Of a stretch of 64,000 nucleotides of DNA, positions 2,801-53,044 are shown one piece after another. Source of the DNA: an uncultured Roseovarius sp. GTDB taxonomy: Bacteria; Pseudomonadota; Alphaproteobacteria; Rhodobacterales; Rhodobacteraceae. The translations under genes and the position numbers were made by a program. The notes beneath the pieces are model-generated. The model was not told the origin of the DNA. It searched no databases and saw only the letters and a program-made list of their open reading frames with translations. Location: contig CANNCP010000006.1 in assembly GCA_947503145.1 (NCBI GenBank), positions 124,001 to 188,000 on the forward strand. The letters are read 5' to 3'. Position 1 is the first letter of the stretch. Each line of letters starts with the position of its first letter.

Positions 2801-2873
2801 TTTTATACTGGCGGGCATTGGTTAAATTAGTATGGTCAACCCGCACAATCGGACGCAGTCAAGGGGCAGAGTA

Positions 2874-4415
2874 TTGAAAAACAATATCTTTATCGGCGGC
2901 GGTGGGCCGGATTACGGCGAAAAGCAGGGGTTGCGCCTGGACTATGCCAACCGTCACGGGCTGATCGCAGGCGCCACCGGCACCGGCAAGACGGTGACGC
3001 TGCAGATCCTGGCCGAGGGGTTTTCGGCAGCGGGCGTTCCGGTTTTCCTGTCAGACGTAAAGGGTGATCTGTCGGGACTGGCCGAAGCAGGCAATGCTGA
3101 TTTCAAACTGCACGAGGCGTTCGCCAGCCGTGCCGCCACGATCGGTTTTACCGATTATCGTTACGAGGCATTTCCCGTCACCTTCTGGGATCTGTTCGGC
3201 CAGCAGGGCCACCCGGTGCGCACCACCGTGGCCGAGATGGGACCGTTGCTGCTGAGTCGGTTGATGAACCTGACCGAAGCGCAGGAAGGCATCATGAACA
3301 TCGCCTTTCGCGTCTCTGACGAAGAGGGCATGCCGCTGCTTGACCTGAAGGACCTGCAGGCGCTGCTGGTCTGGGTCGGCGAAAACCGCGATTCCCTGTC
3401 GCTGCGCTATGGCAATGTCTCGCCGCAATCGGTGGGCGCAATCCAACGCCAGTTGATGGTGTTGGAAAATCAAGGCGGCGCGGCGCTTTTTGGCGAACCG
3501 GCGCTGGATCTGGCCGATCTGATGCAGTCCGATCCGGACGGGCGAGGGCGGATTAATATTCTGGCCTCCGACAAGCTGATGAGCGCGCCGCGCCTCTATG
3601 CCACTTTTCTGCTGTGGCTGTTGTCCGAACTCTTTGAGACGCTGCCAGAGGTGGGCGACCCGGACAAACCCAAGCTGGTCTTTTTCTTTGACGAGGCACA
3701 TCTGTTGTTTGACGATGCACCCAAGGCGCTGGTGGATAAGGTCGAACAGGTCGCGCGCCTGATCCGCTCCAAGGGGGTCGGCGTCTATTTCATCACCCAG
3801 AACCCCGATGACGTTCCTCAGGACATCCTCGGGCAATTGGGCAACCGTGTGCAGCATGCGCTGCGGGCCTTTACTGCGCGCGACCGCAAGGCGCTGAACC
3901 GCGCCGCCGAGACCTACCGGCCCAATTCCCGGTTCAGCACCGTTGATGCGATCCGCGATGTGGGCGTGGGGGAGGCCGTGACCTCGATGCTGGAGAAGAA
4001 GGGTGCGCCGGGTATCGTCGAGCGCACGCTGATCCGGCCCCCATCATCGAAGCTTGGCCCGATTGATCCGGCGCAACGCAAGCGCGTCATTGCGGCATCG
4101 CCCATCGCGGGCAAATACGAGACGCTGATCGACCGCCGCTCTGCTTATGAGATTCTCAAGAGCCGGGCAGAGGCTGCCGCGCAAGAGGCCCAAACCGCCG
4201 AAGATCAGTCAGAGGAGCAAAGCACGGCGGAACGCGAATTCAACGCCGGACGGCGCTATTCGGGCAAACGCGTCAGCCGCTCGTCTTCGCGCGATGAGGG
4301 GTTTGGTACGCAGTTCGGCAAGGCCATCAGCGGTGCCGTGATCAAGGAGATGAAGGGCACGACCGGGCGGCGGATCGTACGCGGTATCCTGGGCGGATTA
4401 TTCAAGGGGCGCTGA
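2874..4415 (+). CDS. HerA-like ATPase, DUF853 family
   Basis: This P-loop ATPase of about 513 residues has Walker A GATGTGKT near the N-terminus, Walker B FFFDEAHLLF in the middle, and a downstream RSKGVGVYFITQNPDD block typical of the HerA/FtsK-related DUF853 (YjgR) family. The C-terminal quarter is a charged, low-complexity segment ending in a basic, glycine-rich tail (GRRIVRGILGGLFKGR). I prefer the TTG start at 2874, giving (M)KNNIFIGGGGPDYGEKQG right after an AGGGGCAG ribosome site; the ATG at 2832 would add 14 residues that do not look like the family. The cellular role of the family is unsettled. Confidence 0.85.
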   Translation: MKNNIFIGGGGPDYGEKQGLRLDYANRHGLIAGATGTGKTVTLQILAEGFSAAGVPVFLSDVKGDLSGLAEAGNADFKLHEAFASRAATIGFTDYRYEAFPVTFWDLFGQQGHPVRTTVAEMGPLLLSRLMNLTEAQEGIMNIAFRVSDEEGMPLLDLKDLQALLVWVGENRDSLSLRYGNVSPQSVGAIQRQLMVLENQGGAALFGEPALDLADLMQSDPDGRGRINILASDKLMSAPRLYATFLLWLLSELFETLPEVGDPDKPKLVFFFDEAHLLFDDAPKALVDKVEQVARLIRSKGVGVYFITQNPDDVPQDILGQLGNRVQHALRAFTARDRKALNRAAETYRPNSRFSTVDAIRDVGVGEAVTSMLEKKGAPGIVERTLIRPPSSKLGPIDPAQRKRVIAASPIAGKYETLIDRRSAYEILKSRAEAAAQEAQTAEDQSEEQSTAEREFNAGRRYSGKRVSRSSSRDEGFGTQFGKAISGAVIKEMKGTTGRRIVRGILGGLFKGR

Positions 4416-4460
4416 CGGCGGGCCGTCCCGTGATGCGCGTGTAATCCGGTTCAAAAGCAA

Positions 4461-4567
4461 AAGCATTCCGCCTTGGACCGAGGCAATCAGGTAAGGTGGA
4501 ATGCGTGCAACGCTGATATGTATCGCTACATTCCGCGAAAAGCCGTGATTCAGGTTTTTCGCGGAAC
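4461..4567 (-). repeat. composite palindromic intergenic repeat, copy A
   Basis: Read on the minus strand this block aligns by eye with 26044-26151 at roughly 80-87% identity. It holds two palindromic modules: one built on CGCGAAAA..TTTTCGCG, and one built on ATTCC(G/A)CCTT. A conserved spacer (AGCGATA..GTTGCACGC) joins them. It lies between the HerA-like gene and a small membrane-protein gene that converge here. Confidence 0.8.
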
Positions 4568-4584
4568 GCCTCAGGGCAGGGCGC

Positions 4585-4788
4585 TCAGCCGCCCGCACCC
4601 ATCGCGGCCCCCAGAATCAATGCGACCGTCAGCAGCGCCAGCATCCCATGCATGTCCTCATTGCTGTTCTGAACCGCGTCGGCGGCCACCACCCGGGATT
4701 CCACAACCGGATCGGCAAGGCTGCCGGAGACAGCCGGAGAGGCGGCAAGCGCCAGCAAACAGCCCGATGCAAGAATAAGATTTTTCAC
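4585..4788 (-). CDS. small secreted or membrane protein of unknown function
   Basis: This protein of about 67 residues has an N-terminal hydrophobic signal-type segment (KNLILASGCLLALAASPAVSG), a short polar middle, and a C-terminal hydrophobic stretch ending in small residues (MLALLTVALILGAAMGAGG). It could be a periplasmic or inner-membrane small protein. I prefer the GTG at 4788, which has a GGTGGGA ribosome-site-like stretch upstream, over the ATG at 4806. It is monocistronic, divergent from the HU-like gene, and matches no family I recognise. Confidence 0.55.
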   Translation of the reverse strand: MKNLILASGCLLALAASPAVSGSLADPVVESRVVAADAVQNSNEDMHGMLALLTVALILGAAMGAGG

Positions 4789-4923
4789 AATAGCCCATCC
4801 CACCATTAGAAATCCATATCGCGATACTACCCATACACCTGCCGTAACGTCAACGGATGGCTAGCTATTCCGGGGCATTGCCGATAATCTGTTTCCAGAG
4901 CAGAAACAATAGAGGTACAGGCA

Positions 4924-5424: not shown

Positions 5425-5499
5425 GGGTGATTAGCTCAGTGGTAGAGCGCTTCGTTCACATCGAAGATGTCAGGAGTTCAAATCTCTTATCACCCACCA
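5425..5499 (+). tRNA. tRNA-Val (anticodon CAC)
   Basis: A full cloverleaf is visible: acceptor GGGTGAT/ATCACCC, D arm AGCTCAGTGGTAGAGC, anticodon stem CTTCG/CGAAG with loop TTCACAT giving CAC, T loop TTCAAAT, and an encoded CCA. It reads GUG codons. Confidence 0.95.
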
Positions 5500-5593
5500 A
5501 AGACGCTTTGCAGATATGCCCGGAGTGTCCTTGAACGTGCCTATCTTCGCGATGGGTCACAGTTCGTTTCAATCACCACGAAGGTGCTGACTC

Positions 5594-6163
5594 TTGTCTG
5601 ATTACCCCGACATCTGGTTTCTGCGGCATGGCGAAACGGTGTGGAATCGCGAGGGGCGCATTCAAGGACACCGCGATTCCGATCTGACGGCGCGGGGGCG
5701 CGCGCAGGCGGCGCAACAGGCCGTGCTTGTCGCGCCGGTCGTGCCGCGCGTTTTGGCGGCTGGCGGGGCAATTCACGTCTCGCCGCTGGGACGTGCACGG
5801 GCGACGGCCGAGATTGCCATGCCAGGAATGACTTTTGAAATTGATCCGGACCTGGCCGAGGTAAGGACCGGCGCCTGGGAAGGCTGCCTGAAAGCGGACC
5901 TGCCGCAAGCCGGGACCGATCTGGACATCTATGCCGCCGCGCCGGACGGCGAGGGATTCGATATTCTCGAAGCGCGGGTGCGCCGGTTTCTGGACGGGCT
6001 GAATGCGCCTGCCATTGTCGTCTCTCACGGGCTTCTGGGGCAGGTAATGCGGGGGCTGATCTGCGGTCTTGACCGTGCCGCAATGGCCAGACTTCCAAAT
6101 CGCCAGGGATGCGTGTTCCTGTTGCGCGGAGGCAAAGAGACGCTGCTGGAAGCAAAGACGTAG
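5594..6163 (+). CDS. histidine phosphatase family protein (phosphoglycerate mutase-like)
   Basis: The 189-residue protein carries the phosphohistidine motif FLRHGETVWN at residues 9-18. A second arginine-bearing block is SPLGRARATAE, the acid residue is in EVRTGAWEG, and the second catalytic histidine is in VVSHGLLGQVMRG. It is a broad-specificity phosphatase/mutase of the branch that includes CobC and PhoE-like enzymes; the substrate cannot be inferred. Translation probably begins at TTG 5594, since no ATG precedes the RHG motif. It is a single gene between two tRNA-Val genes. Confidence 0.8.
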   Translation: MSDYPDIWFLRHGETVWNREGRIQGHRDSDLTARGRAQAAQQAVLVAPVVPRVLAAGGAIHVSPLGRARATAEIAMPGMTFEIDPDLAEVRTGAWEGCLKADLPQAGTDLDIYAAAPDGEGFDILEARVRRFLDGLNAPAIVVSHGLLGQVMRGLICGLDRAAMARLPNRQGCVFLLRGGKETLLEAKT

Positions 6164-6246
6164 GGCCGCGCGCCAGCCAGACAATTCCGGGAAAGGCACG
6201 CACCCTCTTGCGCGACTTTGCGCACCCGGTTAAGAGGCGCATGGCA

Positions 6247-6322
<76 letters not shown>

Positions 6323-6545
6323 TACAACCCCTTGCGCGGCAAGAGGCCCCGTTCCCCCAGAAAACACCCACAACCAGTAACGAGCGGGTCAGCCGACTCC
6401 GATCGGTTTTCTGCGTTCTGCGGGCAATATCGCGCGGCACCGACGCAATACCGACATTTTCCCGTTGCGATGCCAACCTCTGTGCTTGACGGCGCAGCGC
6501 ACCCCTACTAAACCCTGCTGACGCTCTGATCAGAGCGTGCAGTGG

Positions 6546-6622
6546 GCGGTTGTAGCTCAGTTGGTTAGAGTACCGGCCTGTCACGCCGGGGGTCGCGGGT
6601 TCGAGTCCCGTCAACCGCGCCA
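6546..6622 (+). tRNA. tRNA-Asp (anticodon GTC), copy 1
   Basis: The acceptor is GCGGTTG/CAACCGC, and the anticodon stem CCGGC/GCCGG holds loop CTGTCAC (GTC). T loop TTCGAGT and encoded CCA are present. It is identical over all 77 bases to the copy at 6772. The roughly 220 bp between the tRNA-Val gene and this gene show no feature. Confidence 0.95.
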
Positions 6623-6771
6623 CCGCTGCATTTTCAGGCGTTCGAATGCTTGCCCCAGCGGCAATGCACGCCGCGCCAGACGCACCATCCGAAAATAGCG
6701 CGACGACATGGGTGTTTCTGCACTTTGGGGCATTGACTGGCCCGCGCGCTTGGCCTAATCCCCCCTCACGC

Positions 6772-6848
6772 GCGGTTGTAGCTCAGTTGGTTAGAGTACC
6801 GGCCTGTCACGCCGGGGGTCGCGGGTTCGAGTCCCGTCAACCGCGCCA
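6772..6848 (+). tRNA. tRNA-Asp (anticodon GTC), copy 2
   Basis: This is an exact duplicate of the tRNA-Asp gene at 6546-6622, including the CCA end. The 149-bp spacer between the copies contains no convincing gene. Confidence 0.95.
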
Positions 6849-21037: not shown

Positions 21038-22317
21038 TGGATCACACCCCCGTAGACACCCGCGCCTGGGTTCTGCATCCAGACATCTGGTCCCGCGAGG
21101 AAGCGACGCGCACGCCCGCGCTGGCACTGGAAGAGGCAATGGCCCTGGCACATGCACTGCCCGGGCTGAAGCCTCTCGGCGGCACGGTGATCAAGCTGCA
21201 AAAGGCACATCCCGGCATGCTCTTCGGCAAGGGCAAGATTGAAGAGCTGCGCACCCAATTCGAGACCGAAGAGATCGAGCTAGTCCTGATCGACGGCCCC
21301 GTGACGCCTGTGCAGCAACGCAATCTGGAAAAGGCCTGGGGCGTTAAGCTGCTGGACCGCACCGGGCTGATCCTGGAAATATTCAGCGACCGCGCCGCCA
21401 CCCGAGAAGGTGTCTTGCAGGTCGAAATGGCGGCACTCAGCTATCAGCGCACGCGGCTGGTGCGTGCCTGGACCCACCTGGAACGGCAACGCGGCGGGTA
21501 CGGCTTTGTCGGCGGCCCCGGTGAGACACAGATCGAGTCGGACAGGCGCGCCATCGACGACCATCTCGTGCGTCTGCGCCGCCAGTTGGAAAAGGTGGTC
21601 AAGACGCGCACGCTTCACCGTGCCGCACGGGCCAAGGTGCCGTTTCCCATCGTGGCGCTGGTGGGATATACCAACTCTGGCAAATCGACGCTGTTCAACC
21701 ATCTTACCGGCGCCGAAGTGATGGCCGAGGACATGCTCTTTGCGACGCTTGATCCGACGATGCGACGGGTTGAGCTGCCCGAGGGTGGCCCCGAAGTGAT
21801 CCTGAGCGACACGGTCGGTTTCATCTCGGACCTGCCGACAGAGCTGGTGGCTGCTTTTCGCGCGACGCTTGAAGAGGTGCTGAGCGCCGATCTCATCTGC
21901 CATGTGCGCGACATCGCCCACCCGGAGACCGAAGCCCAGAAGGCGGATGTCGAGGCCATTCTGGAAAGTCTCGATGTGGCCCAAGAAACGCCCCGGATCG
22001 AGATATGGAACAAGATCGATCTGCTCGACGATGCCGACCGCACGGCGATGATGACCCGCGCCGAGCGGCTGGAGGATGTGCAGGCGATCTCGGCGGTGAC
22101 AGGCGAGGGGATGACTGCGCTGGTGGGCCGGATTTCGGCGGCGCTGACGGTCGCGGCCCAGGAAGTGCTGCTGCAACTGCGCTTTGACGAAGGCCGCAAA
22201 CGCGCGTGGCTCTTTGAGCGCGGGCTGGTCGAACACGAGGTCCAGACTGACAAAGGGTTCGATCTGACGGTGCGCTGGACCGCGCGCGAGGCGGCACAGT
22301 TTCACGGCCTGGGCTGA
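21037..22317 (+). CDS. hflX: ribosome-associated GTPase HflX
   Basis: The 426-residue GTPase has the HflX N-terminal domain (AHPGMLFGKGKIEEL) and the glycine-rich segment RQRGGYGFVGGPGETQIESDRR. The G domain shows G1 VGYTNSGKS, G3 SDTVGFISDLP and G4 NKIDLL. It splits stalled or stressed ribosomes and is usually found directly after hfq. Its ATG overlaps the hfq stop by one base, giving tight translational coupling. Confidence 0.93.
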   Translation: MDHTPVDTRAWVLHPDIWSREEATRTPALALEEAMALAHALPGLKPLGGTVIKLQKAHPGMLFGKGKIEELRTQFETEEIELVLIDGPVTPVQQRNLEKAWGVKLLDRTGLILEIFSDRAATREGVLQVEMAALSYQRTRLVRAWTHLERQRGGYGFVGGPGETQIESDRRAIDDHLVRLRRQLEKVVKTRTLHRAARAKVPFPIVALVGYTNSGKSTLFNHLTGAEVMAEDMLFATLDPTMRRVELPEGGPEVILSDTVGFISDLPTELVAAFRATLEEVLSADLICHVRDIAHPETEAQKADVEAILESLDVAQETPRIEIWNKIDLLDDADRTAMMTRAERLEDVQAISAVTGEGMTALVGRISAALTVAAQEVLLQLRFDEGRKRAWLFERGLVEHEVQTDKGFDLTVRWTAREAAQFHGLG

Positions 22318-22380
22318 GCGCGCTTCAACGGGTCACGGCAGACCAAAGCCATGCCGACGACATCTGTTAAAGCGTTGCGC

Positions 22381-22423
22381 GCGTTTCCCCTTTACCTGAT
22401 GTCTCAGGTTAAAGGCGAAACGC
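22381..22423. repeat. palindromic intergenic repeat (module 2), copy C
   Basis: The arm GCGTTTCCCCTTTACCTGA pairs with the complement of TCAGGTTAAAGGCGAAACGC, with one mismatch and one bulge, around a loop TGTC. A TAAAGCG end motif lies just upstream. It sits between convergent hflX and the penicillin-acylase gene and may also act as a transcription stop for both. Confidence 0.75.
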
Positions 22424-22445
22424 AGTAGCAGGCACCCTGACAGCG

Positions 22446-24920: not shown

Positions 24921-25118
24921 CGGTCGTGTCACTTAACCTGTCATCAGAGCGTTCTGCCTACAATCCGAGCCGCAGACCTGATGCACAACGCCCACATCAT
25001 TGAAGGGGCCTTTTCCGCCTTCCCCCAGACCGGGAAACCGCAAAAGGCTTTTGCCCTTGCATCCCGGGCCGGGATAGTCAGAAACTCGGGCCAAGACAAT
25101 GGCAAGCGGGGAAAGAAC

Positions 25119-25991
25119 ATGAGTGATTTGGCATTCCTGGGTCTGGGGGTCATGGGATACCCGATGGCAGGTCATCTGCAGGCGGCGGGTCATTCGGTCT
25201 GCGTTTACAACCGGACGGCGACCAAGGCCGGGAAATGGGCAGAGCAGCATGGCGGCACCCACGCGCCAACCCCGCGAGAGGCGGCGGCAGGTGCTGATCT
25301 GGTCATGGCCTGCGTTGGCAACGATGACGATCTGCGATCTGTCTGTCTTGGAGAGGATGGCGCGTTTGCGGGGATGAAGCCCGGTGCGATCTTTGTCGAT
25401 CACACGACCGTGTCAGCCAAGGTGACGGCAGAGCTATACGCCACGGCCAAGGCGGCGGGGCTGAGTTTTGTCGATGCGCCGGTTTCCGGTGGGCAGGCGG
25501 GCGCCGAGAACGGCCAACTGTCGATCATGTGCGGCGGCGACCAGCTGGCCTATGATACCGCAGAGCCGGTCATGAACACCTACGCCAAACTCTGCCGTCG
25601 GATCGGCGACAGCGGCGCCGGGCAGATGACGAAGATGTGCAACCAGATCGCCATAGCCGGTCTGGTGCAGGGGCTCAGCGAGGCGCTGCATTTTGCCGAA
25701 AAGGCGGGGCTCGACGGGCGCGCCGTCACCGAGGTGATCAGCCAGGGCGCGGCGGGCAGCTGGCAGATGGCCAACCGGTACGAGACGATGCTGGATGATC
25801 ATTTTGAACACGGGTTTGCGGTCGACTGGATGCGCAAGGACCTGGGCATCTGCCTCGATACGGCCAACGATAACGGCGCATCGCTGCCGGTCACGGCGCT
25901 GGTCGATCAGTTCTACAAGGATGTGCAGAAGATGGGCGGCGGGCGCTGGGATACGTCAAGCCTGCTCAAACGCCTGCGCAAGCTGGGCTGA
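25119..25991 (+). CDS. NAD(P)-dependent beta-hydroxyacid dehydrogenase (3-hydroxyisobutyrate dehydrogenase family)
   Basis: The 290-residue protein has the Rossmann motif FLGLGVMGYPMAGHLQAAGH, the substrate-binding segment DAPVSGGQAGAENGQLSIM, the catalytic lysine region GAGQMTKMCNQIAIAG, and the C-terminal KDLGICLDTAND motif. The family oxidises 3-hydroxyisobutyrate, tartronate semialdehyde and related compounds; the exact substrate is open. The start at 25119 has a GGGAAAGAAC ribosome site and opens the Rossmann motif at once, whereas the ORF track extends 46 codons upstream. It is divergent from the hydrolase gene. Confidence 0.88.
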   Translation: MSDLAFLGLGVMGYPMAGHLQAAGHSVCVYNRTATKAGKWAEQHGGTHAPTPREAAAGADLVMACVGNDDDLRSVCLGEDGAFAGMKPGAIFVDHTTVSAKVTAELYATAKAAGLSFVDAPVSGGQAGAENGQLSIMCGGDQLAYDTAEPVMNTYAKLCRRIGDSGAGQMTKMCNQIAIAGLVQGLSEALHFAEKAGLDGRAVTEVISQGAAGSWQMANRYETMLDDHFEHGFAVDWMRKDLGICLDTANDNGASLPVTALVDQFYKDVQKMGGGRWDTSSLLKRLRKLG

Positions 25992-26043
25992 ACCGGGACA
26001 CCCCGGCAGCAGCAAGGGCAAACTCCTGCCCTGACATTACAGT

Positions 26044-26151
26044 GTTCCGCGAAAAACCTGACTCACAGATTTTCGCAGAACGCAGCGATATATATGACCG
26101 TTGCACGCATTCCGCCTTAACCAAGTGCCTCAGGTTCAAAGCGAAATACTT
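26044..26151 (+). repeat. composite palindromic intergenic repeat, copy B
   Basis: This block is the counterpart of copy A (4461-4567, opposite strand). Module 1 is GTTCCGCGAAAAACCTGA..TTTTCGCAGAAC. The spacer GTTGCACGC is shared with copy A. Module 2 is ATTCCGCCTTAACC..GGTTCAAAGCGAAAT. It lies between convergent hydroxyacid dehydrogenase and icd. Confidence 0.8.
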
Positions 26152-26157
26152 TAAGAA

Positions 26158-26208: not shown

Positions 26209-27423
26209 TTACCCAGCCAGTGCCTTGTTCAGGTTCTCGTCCACCTTTTCGAGGAAGCCCATCGTTGTCAGCCAGCCCTGGTCGGGGCCGACGAGCAGCG
26301 CCAGATCCTTGGTCATGAAGCCGGACTCGACCGTATCCACGACCACCTTTTCCAGCGTTTCCGCGAAATTCATCAGTTGGGTGTTCTCGTCGAGTTTCGC
26401 GCGGTGCTTGAGCCCGCCGGTCCAGGCGTAGATCGACGCGATCGAGTTGGTCGAGGTTTCCTCGCCCTTCTGGTGCTGGCGATAGTGGCGGGTGACAGTG
26501 CCGTGCGCCGCTTCGGCCTCGACCGTCTGGCCATCGGGGGTCATCAGCACCGAGGTCATGAGACCGAGCGAGCCAAAGCCCTGCGCCACGGTGTCGGACT
26601 GCACGTCGCCATCGTAGTTCTTGCACGCCCATACATAGCCGCCGGACCATTTCATTGCCGCTGCCACCATGTCGTCGATCAGGCGGTGCTCATAGGTGAT
26701 GCCCGCTTCTTCGAACTTGTCCTTGAATTCCTCGTCAAAGACCTGCTGGAACAGGATCATGAACTGACCGTCATAATTCTTGAGGATCGTGTTCTTGGTG
26801 GACAGATACACCGGCCACTTGCGCTGCAAGCCATAATTCATCGACGCACGGGCGAAATCCTTGATCGACTGATCAAGGTTGTACATCGCCATATAGACGC
26901 CAGAGGAAGGTGCCTTGAACACTTCCTCTTCCATGATGGTGCCGTCGTCGCCGACGAATTTCATCGACAGCGTACCGGGGCCGGGGAATTTCATGTCGGT
27001 CGCGCGGTACTGGTCGCCATAAGCGTGACGGCCAATGACGATGGGTTTGGTCCAGCCGGGCACAAGACGCGGCACGTTCTGGCAGATAATCGGCTCGCGG
27101 AACACGACACCGCCAAGAATGTTGCGGATCGTGCCGTTTGGCGACCGCCACATCTTCTTGAGGTTGAATTCCTCAACCCGGCCTTCGTCGGGCGTGATTG
27201 TCGCGCATTTGACGCCGACGCCGTATTGCTGGATCGCGTGGGCCGCGTCGATGGTGATCTGGTCATCGGTCTCGTCACGCGCCTCGATCCCGAGGTCGTA
27301 GTATTTCAGGTCGATGTCGAGATAGGGCAGGATCAGTTTCTTCTTGATGAAATCCCAGATGATCCGGGTCATTTCATCGCCGTCGAGCTCGACGACGGGG
27401 TTTTCTACCTTGATTTTGCTCAT
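26209..27423 (-). CDS. icd: NADP-dependent isocitrate dehydrogenase
   Basis: The 404-residue enzyme is of the eukaryotic-like dimeric type and converts isocitrate to 2-oxoglutarate in the TCA cycle. Motifs are [14 protein letters not shown] at the N-terminus, [29 protein letters not shown] for substrate binding, and [29 protein letters not shown] holding the metal-binding aspartates. [16 protein letters not shown] is the nucleotide region. Full length, monocistronic, with about 190 bp of upstream non-coding DNA where I see no clear promoter. Confidence 0.95.
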
Positions 27424-34003: not shown

Positions 34004-34124
34004 GGAATTGCCTCTGACGGCAATGGGCTGTGACATATGCGGCGCAGGCCAAGGGCAGTGACGCCTCTGGGGCGCCCGTCATACGGTCAGCTACGCAGTG
34101 CGGTGCAGCAATGTGCGATTTAAT

Positions 34125-34166
34125 GCGTTCCGCCTTGAACCTGAGGCGCTCAATCAAGGCGGAACG
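34125..34166. repeat. palindromic intergenic repeat (module 2), copy E
   Basis: The arms CGTTCCGCCTTGA and TCAAGGCGGAACG are perfect complements, with partial pairing of AACCTGAG and CTCAAT further inside. It lies 67 bases from the stop of the DUF4198 gene. Apart from the palindromes, the gap 33854-34233 holds nothing I can assign. Confidence 0.75.
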
Positions 34167-34233
34167 TTTTCGACGGCCAATCGCGCGTTGTTCTTGATCA
34201 GTGCAATATTGGCGGCGAACGAGGGACCATCGG

Positions 34234-52866: not shown

Positions 52867-52899
52867 TCCGCGGCGCTGCGATGGGCCTCAGAATTCTCG

Positions 52900-52950
52900 T
52901 TAAAGCGATCCGCGAAAACTTGCCTCACAGCTTTTCGCGGATCGCTTTAA
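52900..52950. repeat. palindromic intergenic repeat (module 1), copy H
   Basis: TTAAAGCGATCCGCGAAAA and its exact complement are separated by 13 bases (CTTGCCTCACAGC), a 19-bp perfect stem. The core CGCGAAAA..TCACAGC..TTTTCGCG is shared with module 1 of copies A and B. It lies between the convergent GlxA-type gene and dxs. A partial second motif (CAAAATGCTTTG) follows. Confidence 0.8.
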
Positions 52951-53044
52951 TACAAAATGCTTTGTGGCGAGAGCCGGTAAAGCGCGCCCTGCCCTTCGGA
53001 CAGTACCCAAATCCTGCCGTCGGGGGCCTCTTGATACGCAACAG

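Follow-up and report, generated by a model that had tools for sequence, protein, structure and literature searches.

The window, i.e. the whole stretch of 64,000 nucleotides analysed here, contains two full copies, A and B, of a 116-bp element that consists of two hairpin arms and a linker and has no transposase gene. Copy A lies between a HerA-like gene (2832-4415, plus strand) and a small ORF (4585-4806, minus strand), and copy B between genes at 24981-25991 (plus strand) and 26209-27423 (minus strand). Both pairs of neighbours are convergent and the copies themselves are in opposite orientations, just as the preliminary description had held; the two are 83% identical over 109 nt by BLAST, with a mean column identity of 80% in a wider alignment. 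Four plus-strand tRNA genes (5425, 6247, 6546 and 6772) are found near copy A, in the region 5425-6845. The copies in the window and their parts are the following:

4459..4573, plus strand: copy A in full with its two arms, 115 nt; through decay its ends read AA and CA in place of the terminal TAs
4463..4504, plus strand: copy A arm 1, a hairpin, counterpart of the right end of the parental IS630 (...CTGAG-CA)
4505..4530, plus strand: copy A linker, the imperfect palindrome GCAACGnTnATATGTATCGC
4531..4566, plus strand: copy A arm 2, a hairpin, counterpart of the left, transposase-proximal end of the parental IS630
4547..4551: copy A GATTC, a GANTC (CcrM site) at the apex of arm 2, nt 23 inward from the element end
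26038..26153, minus strand: copy B in full with its two arms, 116 nt, with TA at both ends in a T-TA...TA-A context
26107..26149, minus strand: copy B arm 1
26081..26106, minus strand: copy B linker
26045..26080, minus strand: copy B arm 2
26060..26064: copy B GAGTC, a GANTC at the apex of arm 2
52901..52949, plus strand: solo arm-2 palindrome of 49 bp, TAAAGCGATCCGCG...CGCGGATCGCTTTA, flanked as gt-TA..TA-at (covariance-model match 52899-53000)
34119..34210, plus strand: decayed copy, chiefly a solo arm 1 (covariance-model E 2e-8)
22298..22429, minus strand: decayed copy, chiefly arm 1 (covariance-model E 1.6e-4)

A pattern combining the spacer with an arm matches at copies A and B only, with none expected from shuffled controls, and both copies fold with a z of about -5 relative to shuffles. 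The ends of the element are sharp, TAAAGCGTTYCGC...GCGRAACGCTTTA in a Y-TA...TA-R context, and were set by the drop in conservation in an alignment of about 40 copies with their flanks: conservation starts and stops abruptly at Y-TA-AAGCGTTCCGC ... GCGGAACGCTT-TA-R. Between these ends arm 1 is a hairpin of 43 nt, the linker is 26 nt long and arm 2 is a hairpin with an apical GANTC. The spacer, GCAACGATCATATGTATCGCTGC, had earlier been described as conserved and non-palindromic; it is indeed conserved, but it is itself an imperfect palindrome (pairs 55-61/73-79).

In an alignment of 39 copies drawn from the genus and the wider family, pairing holds for 93% of the stem cells, as against about 45% in slid controls, and 19 of the 23 stem pairs display compensatory changes, with pairing kept across genera. 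Hence, the palindromy of the arms is maintained or regenerated: it may stem either from selection on a cruciform or RNA, or from template-switch correction of imperfect palindromes. Terminal inverted repeats alone are no explanation for near-perfect hairpin ends with compensatory changes. Such stable, covarying hairpins are what a structured RNA family, a riboswitch or sRNA, would present; however, a search of Rfam gave no match, the roughly 100 copies are dispersed in both orientations relative to genes, and both DNA ends match those of IS630 elements, which together leave this reading exceedingly improbable. Palindromes that consist of one arm only, 49-51 bp long, bounded by TAAAGC...GCTTTA and flanked by TA, were observed as well, at 52901-52949 of the window and at three other loci (L037, 1038-1086; L310, 2784-2834; L324, 1567-1617); they may represent a smaller mobile form, or else what the two-arm element arose from.

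A BLAST search with copy A recovers about 40 copies in its own genome. With a covariance model built from 35 full copies, 115 matches are obtained there at E<=1e-3 (150 of the 1413 candidates were scored, and a few of the matches are opposite-strand doubles), about 56 of them above 60 bits; we accordingly place the copy number at about a hundred. The preliminary description's view of a high-copy mobile repeat thus stands: the spacer remains conserved with more copies aligned, and neither a scarcity of copies nor a variable spacer, the two outcomes that would have spoken against it, materialised. The element is present in 17 of the 35 genomes of the genus that were searched (its own included), with none to at least 60 copies per congener, and in 11 of 297 other genera of Rhodobacteraceae, a patchy distribution typical of a mobile element. 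In 24 further families of the class, each represented by one genome, the covariance model had no match. An exact-pattern scan of named genomes returned none, and a relaxed pattern led to Roseovarius and its relatives; the named records that bear the element are of Roseovarius, Aliiroseovarius, Pelagivirga, Brevirhabdus and Loktanella MAGs, with plasmids among them. Judging by these names, the genus to which the window belongs is probably Roseovarius. The right arm was also seen on a contig binned as Verrucomicrobia (JAAAPI010000361.1), which is probably misbinned Rhodobacteraceae DNA.

The sites occupied are chiefly intergenic: with gene calls from a simple codon-usage script, which make the counts approximate, 55 of 63 copies lie between genes (25 tandem, 22 convergent, 8 divergent), six overlap a gene, mostly at its end, and two are at a locus edge. 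Convergent gaps thereby account for 22 of the 55 intergenic copies, against about 15% of the intergenic DNA in the window. About ten copies begin or finish exactly at a stop codon (among them those at L002, L009, L014, L019, L027, L328 and L336), because the terminal TAA of the element replaces the stop that it interrupts.

Comparisons of filled and empty sites identify the target. In a close pair of genomes from the genus (G006 and G011), two sites read TA-element-TA in the former and a single TA in the latter. The empty site of the locus pair L100/L234 is GC-TA-G, with 60 identical bases up to the junction, and that of L069/L260 is GC-TA-TT, again with a single TA; a further comparison, L101/L247, concerns a copy with decayed ends. 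The two single-TA sites, the only clean ones, show TA as the duplicated target. The context of the TA is likewise constrained: 17 of the 23 copies with intact TAs have YTAR flanks, as against 7.4% of the TA sites of the window (P about 4e-15), and position -1 is C or T in 41 of the 44 left flanks of IS630 elements. Within a species, the gap between modC and a phosphatase gene on Aliiroseovarius crassostreae plasmids is filled in three sequences (S204, S056, S202) and empty in two (S137, S044), which shows strain-level polymorphism; the empty junction there is TTG, and both a site that was never filled and a later deletion between GCTT repeats fit it.

The ends of the element have close counterparts in the IS630 elements of Rhodobacteraceae. 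These display the same asymmetry: a left end in ...ACCTGAATC and a right end in ...ACCTGAGACAT, the former with GAATC at nt 23 and akin to arm 2, the latter with GAGAC at nt 23 and akin to arm 1. Specific instances include: the Roseovarius elements L114 and L280, with ends TAAAGCTTTTCGATCAAAGTTTGAATC / TAAAGCGTTTCGAGATTAGTTTGAGACAT; L202, with TAAAGCGTTTCGTCTTGAACCTGAATC / TAAAGCGTTTCGACATTAACCTGAGACAT; and L205, whose ends TAAAGCGTCCCGCCAAAAACCTGAATC / TAAAGCATTCCGCCTTTAACCTGAGACAT are only a few bases away from arm 2 and arm 1. Matching arm ends with the same asymmetry recur in IS630s of Roseovarius, of the genomes G244 and G108, and of others. The L114 element (genome G034, 971-2028, 1,058 bp) has two overlapping reading frames, which the NCBI reading treats as one slipped CDS; L280 is a plasmid-borne IS of Roseovarius sp. 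THAF8 that shares the ends of L114 and encodes a protein 99.5% identical to that of L114. The transposase belongs to the IS630 family (DDE_3, E 5e-32; NCBIfam IS630, E 2e-39).

In the element's own genome an intact IS630 with matching ends was not found. Its single DDE_3 gene (L041/L219) encodes an IS630 transposase that shares about 50% identity with the query, and terminal repeats could not be recognised around it; it is hence not the obvious driver. On contig C1 of genome G244, at least ten near-identical IS630 copies of the TAAAGCG type were scored among 112 candidates; this type has expanded there recently, and its copies would be well suited for obtaining an active transposase.

The preliminary description had likened the repeat to REP/BIME elements, which are spread by RAYT, a Y1 tyrosine transposase. 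High copy number, palindromic structure, intergenic placement, arms paired in opposition and solo arms of about 50 bp do recall such repeats. The likeness was not borne out, however: the consensus has neither a GTAG nor a CGTC tag, the search for a RAYT-like transposase in the own genome returned only two Y1_Tnp (RAYT/IS200-like) fragments of 67 and 97 aa, and the ends, the TA target and the cognate elements are all those of IS630. We consider this origin very improbable.

The element thus combines terminal inverted repeats that match those of IS630s with a length of 116 bp devoid of a transposase gene. Together with the Y-TA..TA-R flanks, the two single-TA empty sites, the strain-level presence and absence and the patchiness, all directly observed, this makes it very likely that the element is a MITE, i.e. 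a non-autonomous relative of an IS of the IS630 family (Tc1/mariner superfamily), presumably mobilised in trans. Both parental ends would have been retained in their left/right asymmetry, each expanded to a hairpin arm, with the coding sequence gone. An IS630 transposase acting in trans would recognise the terminal TAAAGCGTTYCGC repeats and insert the element at a TA within a YTAR context, thereby duplicating the TA; the surviving copies would be chiefly intergenic, often at the 3' ends of genes. The GANTC of arm 2 would be a legacy of the parent, whose transposase-proximal end carries the motif almost without exception.

This last point bears on the role of the CcrM site. The host encodes CcrM (6pbd, E 2.7e-167), and the GANTC is present in 27 of 35 copies in the own genome and in 23 of 39 from the genus and family. 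Relative to the rest of the element this retention is ordinary (rank 72 of 108 windows in the own genome), and selection keeping the GANTC in the MITE copies is hence rejected. One might nevertheless regard the element as transposon-derived only in origin and now a functional module selected by the host: a CcrM-dependent regulatory site, a terminator or a processing hairpin. The CcrM site in one loop, the compensatory changes that keep the stems paired across genera and the enrichment in convergent gaps are in keeping with this. Against it, the GANTC is kept no better than its surroundings, the distribution is patchy among congeners and other genera and polymorphic within one species, the arms are not followed by the T-run of a terminator, and a bias towards 3' ends is also expected from selection against harmful insertions. 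On balance we find such a module unlikely and retain the IS630-derived MITE.

In the parental transposons the site has a different standing. Among 39 alphaproteobacterial IS630s that are autonomous and have both ends identified, and that are kin by descent though the positions around the site vary widely, a GANTC is found at nt 22 or 23 from the TA in 37 of 39 left ends and in 0 of 39 right ends. The set spans Rhodobacteraceae, the Rhizobium group, Agrobacterium, Bradyrhizobium, Sphingomonas, Azospirillum, Roseomonas and Gluconobacter. Two further GANTCs precede the transposase start in 24 of the 39, one at about nt 30-46 and the other at about nt 53-69, with a spacing of exactly 23 bp; the motif reaches a density of 37 per kb within the initial 70 bp, versus 0.6 per kb in the remainder of the IS. 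Left ends rich in GANTC, with one to three sites in the first 70 bp or so, were seen at L114 (971-2028), L200-L229 and L266-L297. The nt-23 GANTC is absent from the IS630 relatives of Deinococcus, Nostoc and Pseudanabaena, and also from the Methylorubrum, Pseudomonas K-62 subgroup. A search of a partial literature collection for IS630 together with GANTC gave one relevant item only, a 2007 review.

As the repeats take their GANTC over from the end of the parent and their copies retain it no better than other parts, it is most likely a passenger there. In the IS630 itself, its position at nt 22/23 and its density at the left end suggest a role in control: through it, transposition, the expression of the transposase or both are probably tied to CcrM methylation, i.e. 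to the cell cycle; a gating of transposition by CcrM would follow the precedent of Dam and IS10. We tentatively entertain a broader possibility, on the same analogy, that an alphaproteobacterial clade of IS630 is wired to CcrM through the nt-23 GANTC, usually with the 23-bp pair: its transposition or expression would be tied to the hemimethylated window after replication, the CIR-like repeats would be its MITEs, and their CcrM sites would be inherited transposon control sites and not host modules.

Several known systems offer points of comparison. With the ISRm2011-2-like IS630 group the element shares TA(A/G)AGC... terminal repeats, the TA duplication and a link to a DDE_3 transposase; it differs from the autonomous IS, of about 1,057 bp, in that it has 116 bp and no gene, with each end enlarged to a hairpin. 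RUP is also an IS630-related MITE. REP/BIME elements with their RAYT (GTAG and CGTC superfamilies) are likewise short, intergenic, multicopy palindromes, defined by a palindrome of 20-40 nt with a GTAG or CGTC tag at one end (PMC3733652), whereas the present element has neither tag nor RAYT and is a defined two-arm unit of 116 bp with TA duplication. IS10/Tn10, which is controlled by Dam methylation (PMC5371812), has a methylase site in one of its ends, the one in which the promoter of the transposase also lies, and provides an analogy for the possible mode of control; there, the pair is GATC and Dam and here GANTC and CcrM, and the transposases are unrelated. If CcrM gates the transposition of IS630, this would be an alphaproteobacterial counterpart to the Dam control of IS10, by way of a methylase whose activity is confined to the late part of the cell cycle.

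The nearest likeness is to CIR, the Caulobacter CcrM-associated intergenic repeats (Chen and Shapiro, 2003, as reviewed in PMC2229807). By description these share with the element a length of about 110 bp, two inverted-repeat arms with a linker, a GANTC in the loop of one arm, TA termini, intergenic location and an alphaproteobacterial host; the family reported here matches in its two arms and linker, its GANTC loop, its intergenic placement and its TA termini. It differs from CIR in the order of its host, in a far higher copy number (CIR reportedly reach up to 21 copies) and in having a parental IS630 and single-TA empty sites. A two-hairpin, TA-ended element of 104 bp, TAGAGCATTTC...GGAAGTGCTCTA, lacking GANTC, was the one found in 150 kb scanned of Sinorhizobium meliloti pSymB (L343, 34495-34598), and is perhaps a rhizobial counterpart. 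Since 2003 CIR-type repeats have posed two questions: how they are mobile, the mechanism of which is stated as unknown in the review (PMC2229807), and why a CcrM site is present. To the former the present family gives a concrete answer, in that an IS630 would mobilise it in trans; to the latter it gives a testable one, namely that the site belongs to the end of the parental transposon, which may explain such sites in similar repeats. On the whole, the repeats are best regarded as a new family of IS630-derived MITEs, of the same kind as CIR and ordinary in mechanism.
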